A DNA stretch of 64,000 nucleotides. It comes from Anaeromyxobacter diazotrophicus. Lineage in GTDB: Bacteria; Myxococcota; Myxococcia; Myxococcales; Anaeromyxobacteraceae. The notes beneath the pieces are model-generated. The model had not been told where the DNA came from, searched no databases, and worked only from the letters and a program-made list of their open reading frames with translations. Below are positions 6,400-24,624 of the stretch, piece by piece. Each line of letters begins with the position of its first letter. The stretch's first letter is position 1. The DNA is taken from the NCBI RefSeq assembly GCF_013340205.1, contig NZ_BJTG01000007.1, forward strand, positions 1 to 64,000. The letters are read 5' to 3'. Position numbers and translations under genes: made by a program.

Positions 6400-6624
6400 G
6401 GGGGCGGCGGGGTGGCCCTCCGGCGGTGCTCGGCAAACGACCTGCCGGGTGGGATCCGGCGGCCGGTGCAGAAACGCTCGGCGGCTTGCACCGCAACGTG
6501 CCGCGCCGCGGAGGCGCGAGAGGAACGCGCGCCGGCGCGGCACCGGCGGTGCAGCGCCCGTTCATCGGGAGTGGTCTTCCGCAGGTCGGCCTCCGCTCCG
6601 GCGGAGGGCCACCCCGCCGCCCCC
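6400..6624 (+). repeat. structured inverted-repeat element, copy A
   Basis: About 225 bp bounded by a perfect 23-bp terminal inverted repeat (6400-6422 and 6602-6624; core GGGGTGGCCCTCCG). Inside is a 10-bp perfect hairpin stem, GTGCCGCGCC (6498-6507) with GGCGCGGCAC (6534-6543), flanked by further partial pairing. It has no coding potential. The same architecture and shared sequence blocks (for example CGCAGGTCGGCCT near the right end) recur in copies B and C of this window, so this is a dispersed family and not a chance palindrome. It could be a MITE-like element or a structured RNA; no transposase or clear target-site duplication is seen. Confidence 0.8.
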
Positions 6625-6721
6625 CTGGCGGGCGGGATCTGAGCGCTCAAAGTTCGCGATCGCGGCGAGCGGAACGCTCGGGGGCACGATCACGCCGAGC
6701 GGTCGGTTCCCATGCGCGGGA

Positions 6722-6935
6722 GTCGGGGTGGCCACTCGCCGGAGCGCAGCCAGACCTGCGGACGGACCCGCCCGCCCTACGCCCGGCCAGCAACGCCGGT
6801 GCCACGCCGACCCGTGCGCCGCGCGTACCGCGTCGGCGTGGCACGTCGCGTTGCCGGGCCTGGAGCGTTTCCGCCGACGCCCGCCTACCCAGCCCGGCAG
6901 GTCGTTGGCGAGCACCGCCGAGTGGCCACCCCGAC
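6722..6935 (-). repeat. structured inverted-repeat element, copy B (inverted relative to A)
   Basis: About 214 bp bounded by a perfect 17-bp terminal inverted repeat (6722-6738 and 6919-6935; core GGGGTGGCCACTCG). Read on the minus strand it lines up with copy A along its length, sharing for example the block ACGACCTGCCGGG and the central hairpin. The central stem is GTGCCACGCCGA (6799-6810) with TCGGCGTGGCAC (6833-6844), 12 bp and perfect. Relative to A and C, one stem pair is A-T instead of G-C on both arms, a compensatory change. Its right-hand edge is partly duplicated 47 bp downstream. Confidence 0.8.
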
Positions 6936-7025
6936 GCACGCAGCACGGAACCGATCCGCGGACTGGCGGGCGTCACCCCGACGCACGCAGCTCGGAGCTG
7001 ATCGGGCGCCGCCCCGGCGGAGCGC

Positions 7026-8210
7026 TCAGGCCCGGTTGAGGAAGATGGGCAGCCCGCGCTTCGCGGCGTAACTCGGCCGGAGGCGGTCGGTGTTGTACAT
7101 GGACGCGAGGTCGACCTTGCGGGGCCCGAGCTTGGGGTCGGGGATGGGCACGAGGTCGTACTTGCCGTCGACGAGGGCCGACATGAGACCGCTCTTGCCC
7201 TCCAGCATGGCGTCGAAGGCCATGGTGCCGTAGGTGAGCGCCACCAGCTTGTCGATGAAGTCGGGGTCGCCGGAGCGCAGGTCGTAGGTGAGGTCGGAGA
7301 CGATGGTCTCCTCGCCGGTGCGGGCCTTGATCTCGTCCGAGAGCGACTCGGCGACGCTGGCCTTCTTGCGGTGGCCGAAGGCGTCGGCGTCGCCGTACTC
7401 CTGCACCCGGTACCCCTCCCACTCGGCGCCCTCGGAGAGGACGATGAGCGAGTAGTTGCTGGGGTTCTCGCGCTTGTCGGTCAGGAGCAGGTCGAGGACG
7501 CGGTCGAGCGGCGCCTTGTACTCGGGGATGAGGCAGCGGATGGAGGTGACGAAGGCGGTGTAGAGGGCGGTGAAGCCGGCGTCGCGGCCGAAGACGCGGA
7601 AGATGCCGACGCGCTCGTGCGAGCCGACGGTGGTCCGCTGGCGCTGGATGGCGTCGATCGCGCGGGTGATGGCCGTCGAGAAGCCGATGCAGTACTCGGT
7701 GTTGCGGACGTCGTTGTCCATCGTCTTCGGGATGGCGATGACCTTGGCGCCGAGCTGGTGGAGCCGGGCGGCGTAGCTGAGCGTGTCGTCGCCGCCGATG
7801 GGGATGAGGTAGTCGATGCCGAGCGCGTCCAGGTTCTTCAGCACCTGCTTGCTCACGTCGTGGACGGTGCTGGTCTGGCCGCCCTTCGTGCTCTGCGTGG
7901 CGGGGAAGTCGCCGGCCGCGAGGTGCGGCGGGAGCTTCTTCATCTTGGAGGGGTTCGTGCGCGAGGAGTGCAGCACCGTCCCGCCGCTGCGGTCGATGCG
8001 GCGGGTGTTCTCGCGGTTGAGCGGCATCACGTAGCGCGCCTTGCTCTGCGCGTCATCGAGGTCGAGGTGGGTGAGCCCCTCCCAGCCGCGGCGGATACCG
8101 ACCACCTCGAGGCCGTGCTCGGCGGCCCGGTAGGTGACGCTCTTGATGACCGAGTTGAGGCCCGGGACGTCGCCGCCCCCGGTGAGGATGCCGATGCGCT
8201 TGCTCGCCAT
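7026..8210 (-). CDS. pfp: 6-phosphofructokinase, PPi-type signature
   Basis: A 394-residue PfkA-family enzyme phosphorylating fructose-6-phosphate to the 1,6-bisphosphate in glycolysis. The N-terminal GILTGGGDVPGLN phosphate-binding loop is intact. The phosphoryl-donor determinants are GGDD with D142, and PKTMDND with K162; these are 20 residues apart, as are positions 104 and 124 of E. coli PfkA, where ATP enzymes have Gly and Gly. Asp plus Lys is the established signature of pyrophosphate-dependent enzymes, so a reversible PPi-linked reaction is likely. The fructose-6-phosphate-binding region (SHERVGIFRVFGRDAGF) is present. ATG at 8210. It lies 31 bases downstream of the ybaK-like gene on the same strand. 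Confidence 0.88.
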   Translation of the reverse strand: MASKRIGILTGGGDVPGLNSVIKSVTYRAAEHGLEVVGIRRGWEGLTHLDLDDAQSKARYVMPLNRENTRRIDRSGGTVLHSSRTNPSKMKKLPPHLAAGDFPATQSTKGGQTSTVHDVSKQVLKNLDALGIDYLIPIGGDDTLSYAARLHQLGAKVIAIPKTMDNDVRNTEYCIGFSTAITRAIDAIQRQRTTVGSHERVGIFRVFGRDAGFTALYTAFVTSIRCLIPEYKAPLDRVLDLLLTDKRENPSNYSLIVLSEGAEWEGYRVQEYGDADAFGHRKKASVAESLSDEIKARTGEETIVSDLTYDLRSGDPDFIDKLVALTYGTMAFDAMLEGKSGLMSALVDGKYDLVPIPDPKLGPRKVDLASMYNTDRLRPSYAAKRGLPIFLNRA

Positions 8211-19642: not shown

Positions 19643-19868
19643 AGCGGGCGGCGGGGTGGCCCGCCGGCGTCGCTCCGGACGACCGCCGGGTAGGTACGGC
19701 GGTCGGGGCAGAAGCGCGCGGAGGCCGGGCAACGCATCGTGCCGCGCCGGCACGGCGCACGAGGTCCTCGCGCCGGCGCGGCACCGGCGTTGCTGGCGGC
19801 AGTACGGCGGGCGGGAATCTCACGCAGGTCGGCCTGCGCTCCTTCGGAGGGCCACCCCGCCGCCCGCT
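19643..19868 (+). repeat. structured inverted-repeat element, copy C
   Basis: About 226 bp bounded by a perfect 20-bp terminal inverted repeat (19643-19662 and 19849-19868; core GGGGTGGCCC). The central stem is 13 bp and perfect, GTGCCGCGCCGGC (19739-19751) with GCCGGCGCGGCAC (19772-19784). It has the same orientation as copy A. It shares CGCAGGTCGGCCTGCGCTCC near the right end with A, and the block CACCGGCGTTGCTGG with copy B read on its minus strand. The element again sits between genes, 95 bases after a stop codon. Confidence 0.8.
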
Positions 19869-19888
19869 GGCGGGCGTATCCGTCCGCT

Positions 19889-19980
19889 GGTCGAGGTCGC
19901 GGTCGGGATCGAGGTCGGGATCGAGGTCGGGGTCGGGGTCGAGGTTGGGGTCGAGTTGGGGTCGAGGTCGCGGTCGAGGA
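19889..19980 (+). repeat. GGTCG(A/G) hexanucleotide tandem tract
   Basis: About 92 bp made of imperfect six-base units such as GGTCGA, GGTCGG and GGATCG. It ends at the stop of the convergent Gre-family gene. Such tracts are prone to length change by slippage. No reading frame uses it convincingly. Confidence 0.75.
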
Positions 19981-19982
19981 CC

Positions 19983-20492
19983 TCACCCCGGCGGCGTCCT
20001 CCGGACCTCCACCACCGTCAGCTCCACCTCGCCCTTGGGGCGGCGCACCGTCGCCGTATCGCCGGCGCGCTTGCCGAGGAGCGCGCGCGCCAGGGGGGCG
20101 TCGGCGCTGACGAGGCGCCGCCGGGCGTCCGCCTCGTCCGGCCCGACGATGCGCCAGGTGGCGCGCTCTCCCGCCTCGTCCTCGACCGTGACCCAGCTGC
20201 CGAAGCCGGCCTGGCCGGCGGGCGCCGCCTCCGGGCCGAGCACGGTGAGGGCGGCGAGGGTGCCGCGCAGGAAGCCGGCGCGGCGCTCCAGCTCCGCGCG
20301 CCGCGCCTCCCGGGCGGCCGCCGGCGAGGTCGCGGCCTCCGCCAGCTCGCGCTCGGCGCGCGCCAGCGCCGCCCGGAGGGCCGCCTGCCCCTCCGGCGTC
20401 ACGTAGCGGACCTCGCCCGGCGCGAGGCGCGGGGGAGGGCGGGCGACGAGCTCCGCCTCGGGGGTCTCCTCGCTGGTGAAGGCCTTGGACAC
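19983..20492 (-). CDS. greB: GreA/GreB-family transcript cleavage factor
   Basis: A 169-residue Gre-type protein. The N-terminal part after about 30 residues is an antiparallel coiled coil (LRAALARAERELAEA to ERRAGFLRGTLAAL). The C-terminal FKBP-like domain contains GSWVTVEDEAGERATWRIVGPDEAD and SADAPLARALLGKRAGDTATVR, which match the conserved Gre core. Gre factors insert the coil into the RNA polymerase secondary channel and rescue backtracked complexes. The start MSKAFTSE is GreB-like, so GreB is the better guess, but the acidic tip residues are not clear and a non-cleaving paralogue is possible. ATG at 20492. Confidence 0.75.
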   Translation of the reverse strand: MSKAFTSEETPEAELVARPPPRLAPGEVRYVTPEGQAALRAALARAERELAEAATSPAAAREARRAELERRAGFLRGTLAALTVLGPEAAPAGQAGFGSWVTVEDEAGERATWRIVGPDEADARRRLVSADAPLARALLGKRAGDTATVRRPKGEVELTVVEVRRTPPG

Positions 20493-22554: not shown

Positions 22555-24624
22555 TCAGGGGCCGGCGTAGGCGGCGACGCCGCCCGGCGCGGTGATCGCC
22601 CCGCTCTTGTCGGAGACCGCGCCGAACGCGAAGTACACGACGCGGCCCCCGCTCCCCCACCGGTCGAGCTGGATGCTCCGCACCGGCTGCGAGGCGAAGG
22701 CGGGCGCGCCCGCCACCGTCATGTCCTGGAAGTGCCCGTCCGTCGTGCGCCGCAGGACGCCACCCGTGCCGAGCCCGATCCAGAGGGTCCCCGCGCCGGC
22801 GCCGCCCCAGTCGCACGCCAGCGCGACCGCACCGGCGAAGTTGTCGGGCAGGCTCACCTTCTGAATGACGTTCCCCCACGCGTCGAGCTGCGCCAGGCCG
22901 TGGGTGAACGACCCCACCCACACCGTGCCGTCCTGGCAGTGCGAGAGCGCCCGCACGCTGTCGTCCGGCGTGCCGTCGCCGAGGCTGGCCGGGATGAACG
23001 GCGGGACGTCCGGCCAGATGTCCGCGCCGTACATCCAGTCGGTCGTCTTGCCGTCGGCGTGGTCGACGACCTGCGCCGCCGGGCCCATCCACCAGTCCTG
23101 GCGCGAGAAGGTCTCGCCGTAGCCGCCCTGGTTCACCGGGACGTAGGCGGTGCGGGCGCCGTTCGAGCCCCAGGGCGCGCCGTCCTGCGGGTTGATGGAG
23201 ACCGCGTACCCCTGGCCGTAGTAGACGGACTGCGCGCCGTTGCTGGCGGTCCAGGTGACCACCGGGTGCAGGTGCTCCCAGAAGTAGCGCGCGTCCTTCC
23301 ACTCGTCTTGGGTCGAGGCGTCCAGCTCGGCGATGGGGTCCCACCAGCCGCGCTGCTGCGGCTTCGCGATCAGCGCGGCCAGGGTGGCGTGCTGCCCGCC
23401 CATCCAGGCGTCCCCGTACATGAGCGACCAGGCGTTGTGGTTGACGGCGACGTGGTCCACGCGGTGCAGCAGGCGGCGGCCGGTGGTCCAGTAGGGCAGG
23501 GAGGCGAGCGGCTGCTGACCCGGGGCCGGCTGGCACTTCTTCGTCCACTGATCGTGCAGGTAGTCGCAGACGACGTGGGGCGGGCCGCCGGTCAGCACGT
23601 GCCGGGTCAGCGACAGGCTCTTGCCGTCGAAGGCGACCACGTCGGCGCCGCCCGAGTCGAGGGCCCAGCCCGCCAGCGGCTGCTCCAGGCAGACCACGTC
23701 CTGCAGGTCGCAGATGAACGAGAAGTCGAAGCCGTCGTAGCCGACGAACGCGCCGCCGGGTGCCGCGCCGGCGACCGAGATGACGGGGCAGAGCGTGAAC
23801 GGCGTGGGCGGGAGCTGGGCCACCTTGGTGGAGTACGACCAGTCGTTGCACTTCCGGGAGAGCCCGCCGTTCGCAGCGTCGAAGCGCAGGAACTTCTCGT
23901 CGCCGCGCTGCTTCGCGTAGAGGGCGTCGACGCCGGCGACGTAGACGTTCCCGCCCTCGTCGGCCGAGACGTCCCGGATGTCCCGCGAGAGGCCCTCGCG
24001 CGCGCCGTAGTAGGTCCAGTCGCCCACCTTGCGAGGATGCACCGTGACCGTGACGGTCCTCGACTGCGTCGCGCCGGCGTCGTCCCTCGCCGTCAGTGTG
24101 TAGGTCGTCGTGTCGGCGGGGATCACGGCGACGGAGGTCTGGCCGGCCGCGAGCGCGCCCACGTCGGGCGAGATCGCGACGCCGGCCGCGCCGGCCAGCG
24201 ACCACGCCAGGGTCGTGCTCTGCCCGAGCGCGAGGTCGGAGGGCGTGGCCGTGAACGAGCCGATCTCGAGCGCGATGCGAGGGTGCACCGTCACCGTGAC
24301 CGCCCTGGTCTGCGGCGCCCCGGCGTCGTCGGTCGCGGTCAGCGTGTACGTCGTCGTGGTGACCGGCTTCACGGTCACGGAACGCTGGTCGGCCGCGAGG
24401 GCGCCCACGTCGGGCGAGATCGTGATCGTGACCGCGCCCGTCAGCGTCCACGCGAGCGTCGTGCTCTGCCCTTCCGTGAGCTCGGACGGGGTCGCGGTGA
24501 ACGCGTCGATCGCGAGCGCGGTGTGCCCCGCGTCGGGGGCGCTGGGCGAAGAGGCGGCGGAGCAGCTCCAAAGCACCAGGGCGCATCCGCAGGCGCCCAC
24601 CATCCTCGACCGACCCTGACCCAT
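22555..24624 (-). CDS. lipoprotein with two Ig-like repeats and a propeller-like sensor region
   Basis: A 689-residue predicted lipoprotein. A signal peptide ends in a lipobox, LVLWSC/S, so it should be lipidated and surface- or periplasm-anchored. Two nearly identical 82-residue Ig/PKD-like domains follow (FTATPSELTEGQSTTLAW... and FTATPSDLALGQSTTLAW..., each ending TVTVTVHPR). The remaining 480 residues contain WVGSFTHGLAQLDAWGN and TLWIGLGTGGVLRRTTDG, which resemble blades of two-component-regulator propellers, mixed with cysteine- and tryptophan-rich loops. The function is unknown; carbohydrate or cell-surface binding is plausible because the exopolysaccharide genes follow. ATG at 24624. 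Confidence 0.7.
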   Translation of the reverse strand: MGQGRSRMVGACGCALVLWSCSAASSPSAPDAGHTALAIDAFTATPSELTEGQSTTLAWTLTGAVTITISPDVGALAADQRSVTVKPVTTTTYTLTATDDAGAPQTRAVTVTVHPRIALEIGSFTATPSDLALGQSTTLAWSLAGAAGVAISPDVGALAAGQTSVAVIPADTTTYTLTARDDAGATQSRTVTVTVHPRKVGDWTYYGAREGLSRDIRDVSADEGGNVYVAGVDALYAKQRGDEKFLRFDAANGGLSRKCNDWSYSTKVAQLPPTPFTLCPVISVAGAAPGGAFVGYDGFDFSFICDLQDVVCLEQPLAGWALDSGGADVVAFDGKSLSLTRHVLTGGPPHVVCDYLHDQWTKKCQPAPGQQPLASLPYWTTGRRLLHRVDHVAVNHNAWSLMYGDAWMGGQHATLAALIAKPQQRGWWDPIAELDASTQDEWKDARYFWEHLHPVVTWTASNGAQSVYYGQGYAVSINPQDGAPWGSNGARTAYVPVNQGGYGETFSRQDWWMGPAAQVVDHADGKTTDWMYGADIWPDVPPFIPASLGDGTPDDSVRALSHCQDGTVWVGSFTHGLAQLDAWGNVIQKVSLPDNFAGAVALACDWGGAGAGTLWIGLGTGGVLRRTTDGHFQDMTVAGAPAFASQPVRSIQLDRWGSGGRVVYFAFGAVSDKSGAITAPGGVAAYAGP
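24031..24522 (-). repeat. tandem 246-bp duplication encoding two Ig-like domains
   Basis: The segments 24031-24276 and 24277-24522 are direct repeats with a 246-bp period (82 codons). Each encodes one Ig-like domain of the lipoprotein. The DNA similarity is high enough to see by eye over the GTGCACCGT start and the GCCGGCGTCGTC block, suggesting a recent duplication or gene conversion. Confidence 0.8.

Follow-up and report, generated by a model that had tools for sequence, protein, structure and literature searches.

Copies A, B and C of a 64,000-nt window of Anaeromyxobacter diazotrophicus DNA (the whole stretch analysed, from contig NZ_BJTG01000007.1) belong to a dispersed, non-coding, palindromic intergenic repeat whose central hairpin has kept its base pairing, as opposed to drifting, a result that is strongly supported. 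We favour, with modest confidence, the interpretation that this repeat is a non-autonomous MITE- or REPIN-like mobile element whose folded strand would be recognised by a transposase encoded elsewhere. The genome from which the window derives (4.83 Mb in 17 contigs, designated G000) harbours 31 full-length copies with a core of approximately 220 nt, A, B and C included, alongside a copy with an internal deletion, a truncated copy and two that consist of the 5′ half. The element is composed of terminal inverted repeats (TIRs), the inner part of which reads GGYCCTCCG/CGGAGGRCC, and, at its centre, an 18-pair hairpin that is interrupted by a conserved 3 × 2 internal loop (NNC/CG, the left side usually being AAC or ATC), a fold present in every full-length copy. 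Pairwise identity between the G000 copies ranges from 64 to 99.5% and three subfamilies can be distinguished, copy A belonging to that of L002 with 99% identity. The positions of the copies and their parts are given in Table 1; copy B is oriented opposite to A and C, which corrects the initial annotation. The pattern GTGCCRCGCCG-N(10-40)-CGGCGYGGCAC was matched three times in the window and never in 100 dinucleotide-preserving shuffles, while the hairpins of A, B and C proved more stable than shuffled sequences (z about −3.9 to −5.5, with DNA or RNA folding), that of copy B on either strand.

Table 1. Element copies, their parts and associated features; positions are those of the window unless a contig (C) or locus (L) is named.
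Feature	Position	Strand	Remarks
Copy A, full-length core	6403–6621	+	blastn and covariance-model match
Copy A, central hairpin	6488–6552	+	two helices with 3 × 2 internal loop; 6498–6543 matches the pairing reported for copy B
Copy A, left TIR	6409–6421	+	partner arm 6603–6615
Copy A, right TIR	6603–6615	+	
Copy A, long-range helix, left arm CGACCT	6438–6443	+	partner 6583–6588; double changes in L011 and L061
Copy A, long-range helix, right arm AGGTCG	6583–6588	+	
Copy B, full-length core	6719–6938	−	inverted relative to A
Copy B, central hairpin	6789–6855	−	contains the 6799–6844 pairing, A-U replacing G-C
Copy B, right TIR (element orientation)	6725–6737	−	
Copy B, left TIR (element orientation)	6920–6932	−	
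Copy C, full-length core	19647–19864	+	
Copy C, central hairpin	19729–19793	+	19739–19784 is the counterpart of the pairing reported for copy B
Copy C, right-hand flank, degenerate GGTCGV hexamer repeats	19865–19990	+	typical only of copy C's subfamily
GGTCGV tails	19865–19990; right flanks of L014–L017, L019–L026, L028, L029		
Inverted element pairs	6403–6938; G000:C4:33618–34110; C1:633157–633784; C4:391477–392108		
Extra left ends	G000:C3:398902–398978; C5:450741–450816; left flanks of L217–L219		

A covariance model constructed from the 31 copies retrieved 14 diverged copies, undetectable with blastn, in G002, the genome of a bacterium from a different genus within this family. Since the hairpin was named from three copies, the remaining 42 of these 45 constitute an out-of-sample set. 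The initial annotation had described a G-C pair that became A-U on both arms of the hairpin of copy B; this hairpin is located at 6799–6844, exactly where it had been placed, and the exchange is real, being found in six of the 31 full-length copies (L013, L028, L029, L030, L061 and B). The pair in question (105/142) is G-C in 25 copies and A-U in six, the latter at three positions of the tree, and the one-sided intermediate is absent. Counting 19 pairs over the 31 copies of G000, all 589 cells are standard and no break is observed, while the 558 cells of the 18-bp helix are Watson-Crick without exception; across both genera, 756/756 cells over the 18 pairs are standard, identical rows having been merged. 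In the 45 copies, changes on both sides were detected at six of the 18 pairs, the sole one-sided change apart from the basal pair being one G.U, in L229. The double change at pair 93/153 coincides with a subfamily split, pair 94/152 underwent two independent double changes (L018 and L061), and the basal pair 89/157 is U-A, A-U or G.U, the wobble being confined to one lineage of 15 copies.

For statistical assessment of the 31 G000 copies, a tree was built without the hairpin arms and independent evolution along it was simulated in 2000 runs. This null yielded a mean of 515.6 paired cells (sd 9.7, maximum 545) against 558 observed, a value reached in 0/2000 runs. Gene conversion of whole hairpins between copies could cause one mutational double change to pass for several, thereby inflating the events counted at pair 105/142; when this is allowed for, G000 still has no fewer than four separate double changes and not one single break. 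The covariation check over all aligned genomic copies suggested in the initial annotation did not succeed when applied to all column pairs, as our own tree-corrected, R-scape-like implementation returned no pair at E ≤0.05 (best E 0.1; E approximately 0.68 for pair 105/142). This is because a few deep subfamily splits cause many unpaired columns to co-vary, and significance is confined to structure-restricted tests.

Concerning the terminal repeats, these are only loosely coupled and this half of the covariation claim is weaker. In the 31 copies 96.8% of cells are paired and 13/403 are not, with approximately 12 one-sided events and a G.A at one pair in five copies; set against the tree null, 389 paired cells were observed where the null maximum is 384, and double changes are seen in both genera. 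The concerted change of CCTCCG/CGGAGG to ACTCG/CGAGT reported for copy B is genuine, but it is limited to one clade (B, L030 and L061) and one-sided changes occur elsewhere. The proposal that selection or copying keeps the pairing is strongly supported for the central hairpin and less so for the terminal repeats, as the one-sided, pairing-breaking changes named as evidence to the contrary are absent from the former and present in the latter. The long-range helix CGACCT/AGGTCG underwent two independent double changes in G000 and is not evident in the G002 copies.

From the hairpin data we infer that selection maintains this hairpin in its specific, imperfect form. Copying could produce a similar outcome, either by template switching between the arms of the quasi-palindrome at replication or by gene conversion, and the perfect coupling of the short-spaced central hairpin, as opposed to the widely spaced terminal repeats, is what template switching predicts. 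However, the asymmetric loop of 3 versus 2 nt survives in 45/45 copies and in both genera, whereas template switching tends to erase such loops, and arms separated by 150–200 nt show double changes too. Since the internal loop is retained and distant arms change together, the data are read as selection and we regard copying as improbable. We give still less credence to the notion that the arms are inverted double-stranded DNA sites for a dimeric DNA-binding or nucleoid protein, the half-sites of which change together: such sites would be expected to be palindromic, intergenic, dispersed and alike on both strands, as the element is, but they do not need position-by-position complementarity over 18 pairs (e.g. 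C-G to G-C), half-sites approximately 26 bp apart could drift independently, and the internal loop is strand-asymmetric.

Genomic placement was evaluated employing a simple codon-model gene caller. Among the 31 full-length G000 copies, 16 are situated between convergent and 14 between tandem genes, none is divergent and one is unresolved, the copies commonly being 20–150 bp from the 3′ end of a gene; in G002, nine of 13 resolved sites are convergent. Both long convergent gaps of the window carry elements, the other nine convergent gaps being ≤81 bp. Such placement would be consistent with a mobile element that is tolerated where it is least harmful, as has been argued for pneumococcal repeats (PMC3049150), and is also consistent with an RNA role at 3′ ends. 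According to the latter view, which we consider unlikely though deserving of attention, the element would be a folded RNA domain of 3′ UTRs whose hairpin shields the mRNA, directs its processing or brings about its termination, the pairing being selected by the host or a host protein. The proximity to gene 3′ ends and its recurrence in G002 speak for this possibility, as does the finding that wobbles within the 18-pair hairpin, read on the + strand, are all G.U (the basal lineage of 15 copies and L229) and never A.C. Conversely, neither a U-run terminator nor an Rfam match was found, and the element was not found in most relatives, which argues against a general host need. The initial annotation had offered "folded RNA or cruciform DNA"; the preserved pairing accords with this proposal, but in tandem contexts the copies point with or against the upstream gene about equally often and, when every helix is counted, G.U and A.C are rare alike and of similar frequency by our own event count, observations that tell against the RNA reading and leave the choice between the two undecided.

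Two additional features of the window were noted. The phosphofructokinase gene at 7026–8210 has its closest matches in the species collection in Bradyrhizobium and Acidobacteria, suggesting that it may have been acquired by horizontal transfer, and adjacent 246-nt direct repeats of 80% identity at 24030–24521 lie within a reading frame and probably represent a duplicated domain.

Returning to the mobile element interpretation, the folded single strand, most likely single-stranded DNA exposed at replication, would be the form recognised, and a transposase encoded elsewhere would act on it. Only copies with an intact hairpin would multiply, so that selection, operating on the element itself, would preserve pairing and not sequence. 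In favour of mobility, 31 full-length copies face few partial ones, and the covariance-model scores in G000 fall directly from 160 bits to less than 80, so that a graded series of decaying copies is lacking. The flanks of the G000 copies bear no relation to one another past approximately 25–30 nt, and the tail-to-tail A-B pair recurs as a duplicated composite on contig C4 (33618–34110) with 96–98% identity and in a different context. As in MITEs, the element is short, non-coding and dispersed (31 copies), and bounded by 13-bp TIRs with the above-mentioned degree of pairing. Counted against mobility are the lack of a transposase tied to the element in G000, three copies that arose by segmental duplication, and the lack of a target-site duplication or empty site. 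No clear target-site duplication was discerned by eye in the flanks of the G000 copies, and the search for an empty site of copy C by means of its greA-like neighbour encountered no synteny with relatives there; it is due to this loss of synteny that neither is demonstrable.

Further peculiarities of the copies and their flanks were observed. Four inverted element pairs, each within approximately 650 bp, have right ends that always face each other, and in each of the two genera some full copies are directly preceded by additional tandem left ends. GGTCGV hexamer tails accompany most copies of the C subfamily, nearly always on the right side alone, and vary in length among near-identical copies; they were dismissed as proof of a retro-element as the hexamer is a genome-wide microsatellite. 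The outer left flank was likewise rejected as an insertion target, its motif being nearly restricted to elements.

The sole RAYT-like gene found in G000 (C5:427824, NF047646) scored 62 bits, below the 80-bit cut-off, and no element is present at its flanks; it was discounted as mobiliser, having no meaningful sequence in common with the element, a 22-bp match representing GC-rich chance. The gene has short inverted repeats of its own, and at L063 (1315–2298) a RAYT-like tyrosine transposase gene is situated between the short inverted repeats CACCCAGAGTA / TACTCTGGGTC, which perhaps form a repeat family peculiar to it. A family of HNH endonuclease-like genes comprises approximately nine copies, many at contig ends (L019, L022, L024, L164–L169), of which three have an element just beyond the 3′ end and others a solo left end. 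The elements at L019, L022 and L024 travel with the HNH gene through segmental duplication and not transposition, and the gene family was rejected as carrier or driver as it accounts for just these three copies. When ends shared with an autonomous transposon were sought in G000, the exact matches to the TIR pattern proved, among the matches listed, to be nearly all ends of known copies, while two solo matches are not element-like.

Beyond the two genomes, covariance-model searches of 11 other genomes of the same family yielded no copies, and none was found in a congeneric genome, plasmids or phages. The core pattern was matched 0 times in a collection of genome contigs and in viral contigs, although the pattern applied to genome contigs would miss diverged copies of the G002 type. 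The Rfam 15 covariance models gave no match in the window at gathering score and none of relevance at a relaxed E-value. The G002 copies share with those of G000 the inner terminal repeat (with TGGCCCTCCGGCG present in G002 copy L224), the central hairpin and its internal loop, outside of which the sequences diverge widely. It is conceivable, if rather doubtful, that this is an old family-level element with a fold conserved over sequence, in which hairpin and loop form a module for a single-stranded DNA- or RNA-binding enzyme other than the RAYT/REP type.

The element has counterparts among known bacterial repeats. ERIC, Correia/NEMIS and other bacterial MITEs, which can influence transcripts (partly PMC3049150), resemble it in size class, terminal inverted repeats and intergenic, non-coding nature, but bear no sequence relation to it. 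REPINs are doublets of REP sequences that form hairpins, are moved by RAYT and commonly ("common") exhibit compensatory changes (PMC3116915). With these the element shares its dispersed intergenic palindromes, the inverted repeats flanking a spacer, the capacity for a single-stranded DNA or RNA hairpin, and the compensatory changes. It differs in that it measures approximately 220 rather than about 100 nt, its conservation extends to the centre, a GTAG/GTGG tag is not kept across both genera, and the RAYT-like gene has no sequence link to it; 5′ of the central hairpin no such tag was found, and GTGG occurs in the TIR of G000 only, being absent in G002. GTAG/CGTC-tagged REPs are palindromes between convergent or unidirectional genes, and the long TIRs borne by some RAYT genes make up families of repeats (PMC3733652); tagged REPs span 20–40 bp with a tetranucleotide tag, whereas the hairpin of the element has none. 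The BOX, RUP and SPRITE repeats of pneumococci are enriched between convergent genes (PMC3049150), as is the element, which is also small and tightly folded with pairing terminal repeats in the manner of BOX and RUP; in contrast to these repeats it resides in another phylum, shows no sequence relation and has no visible modular boxB-like unit. The element is thus a new family of a known class, compensatory changes and a bias towards convergent genes already being known for such repeats.

The 45 copies from two genera, with one imperfect hairpin retained throughout, represent a natural covariation data set that allows selection on a fold to be separated from copying between arms. They also carry a caution, since among related copies terminal repeats and subfamily splits can mimic covariation. 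The hairpin with its internal loop, common to both genera, is the part worth following, and it offers a specific probe with which to seek the enzyme that would mobilise the element.
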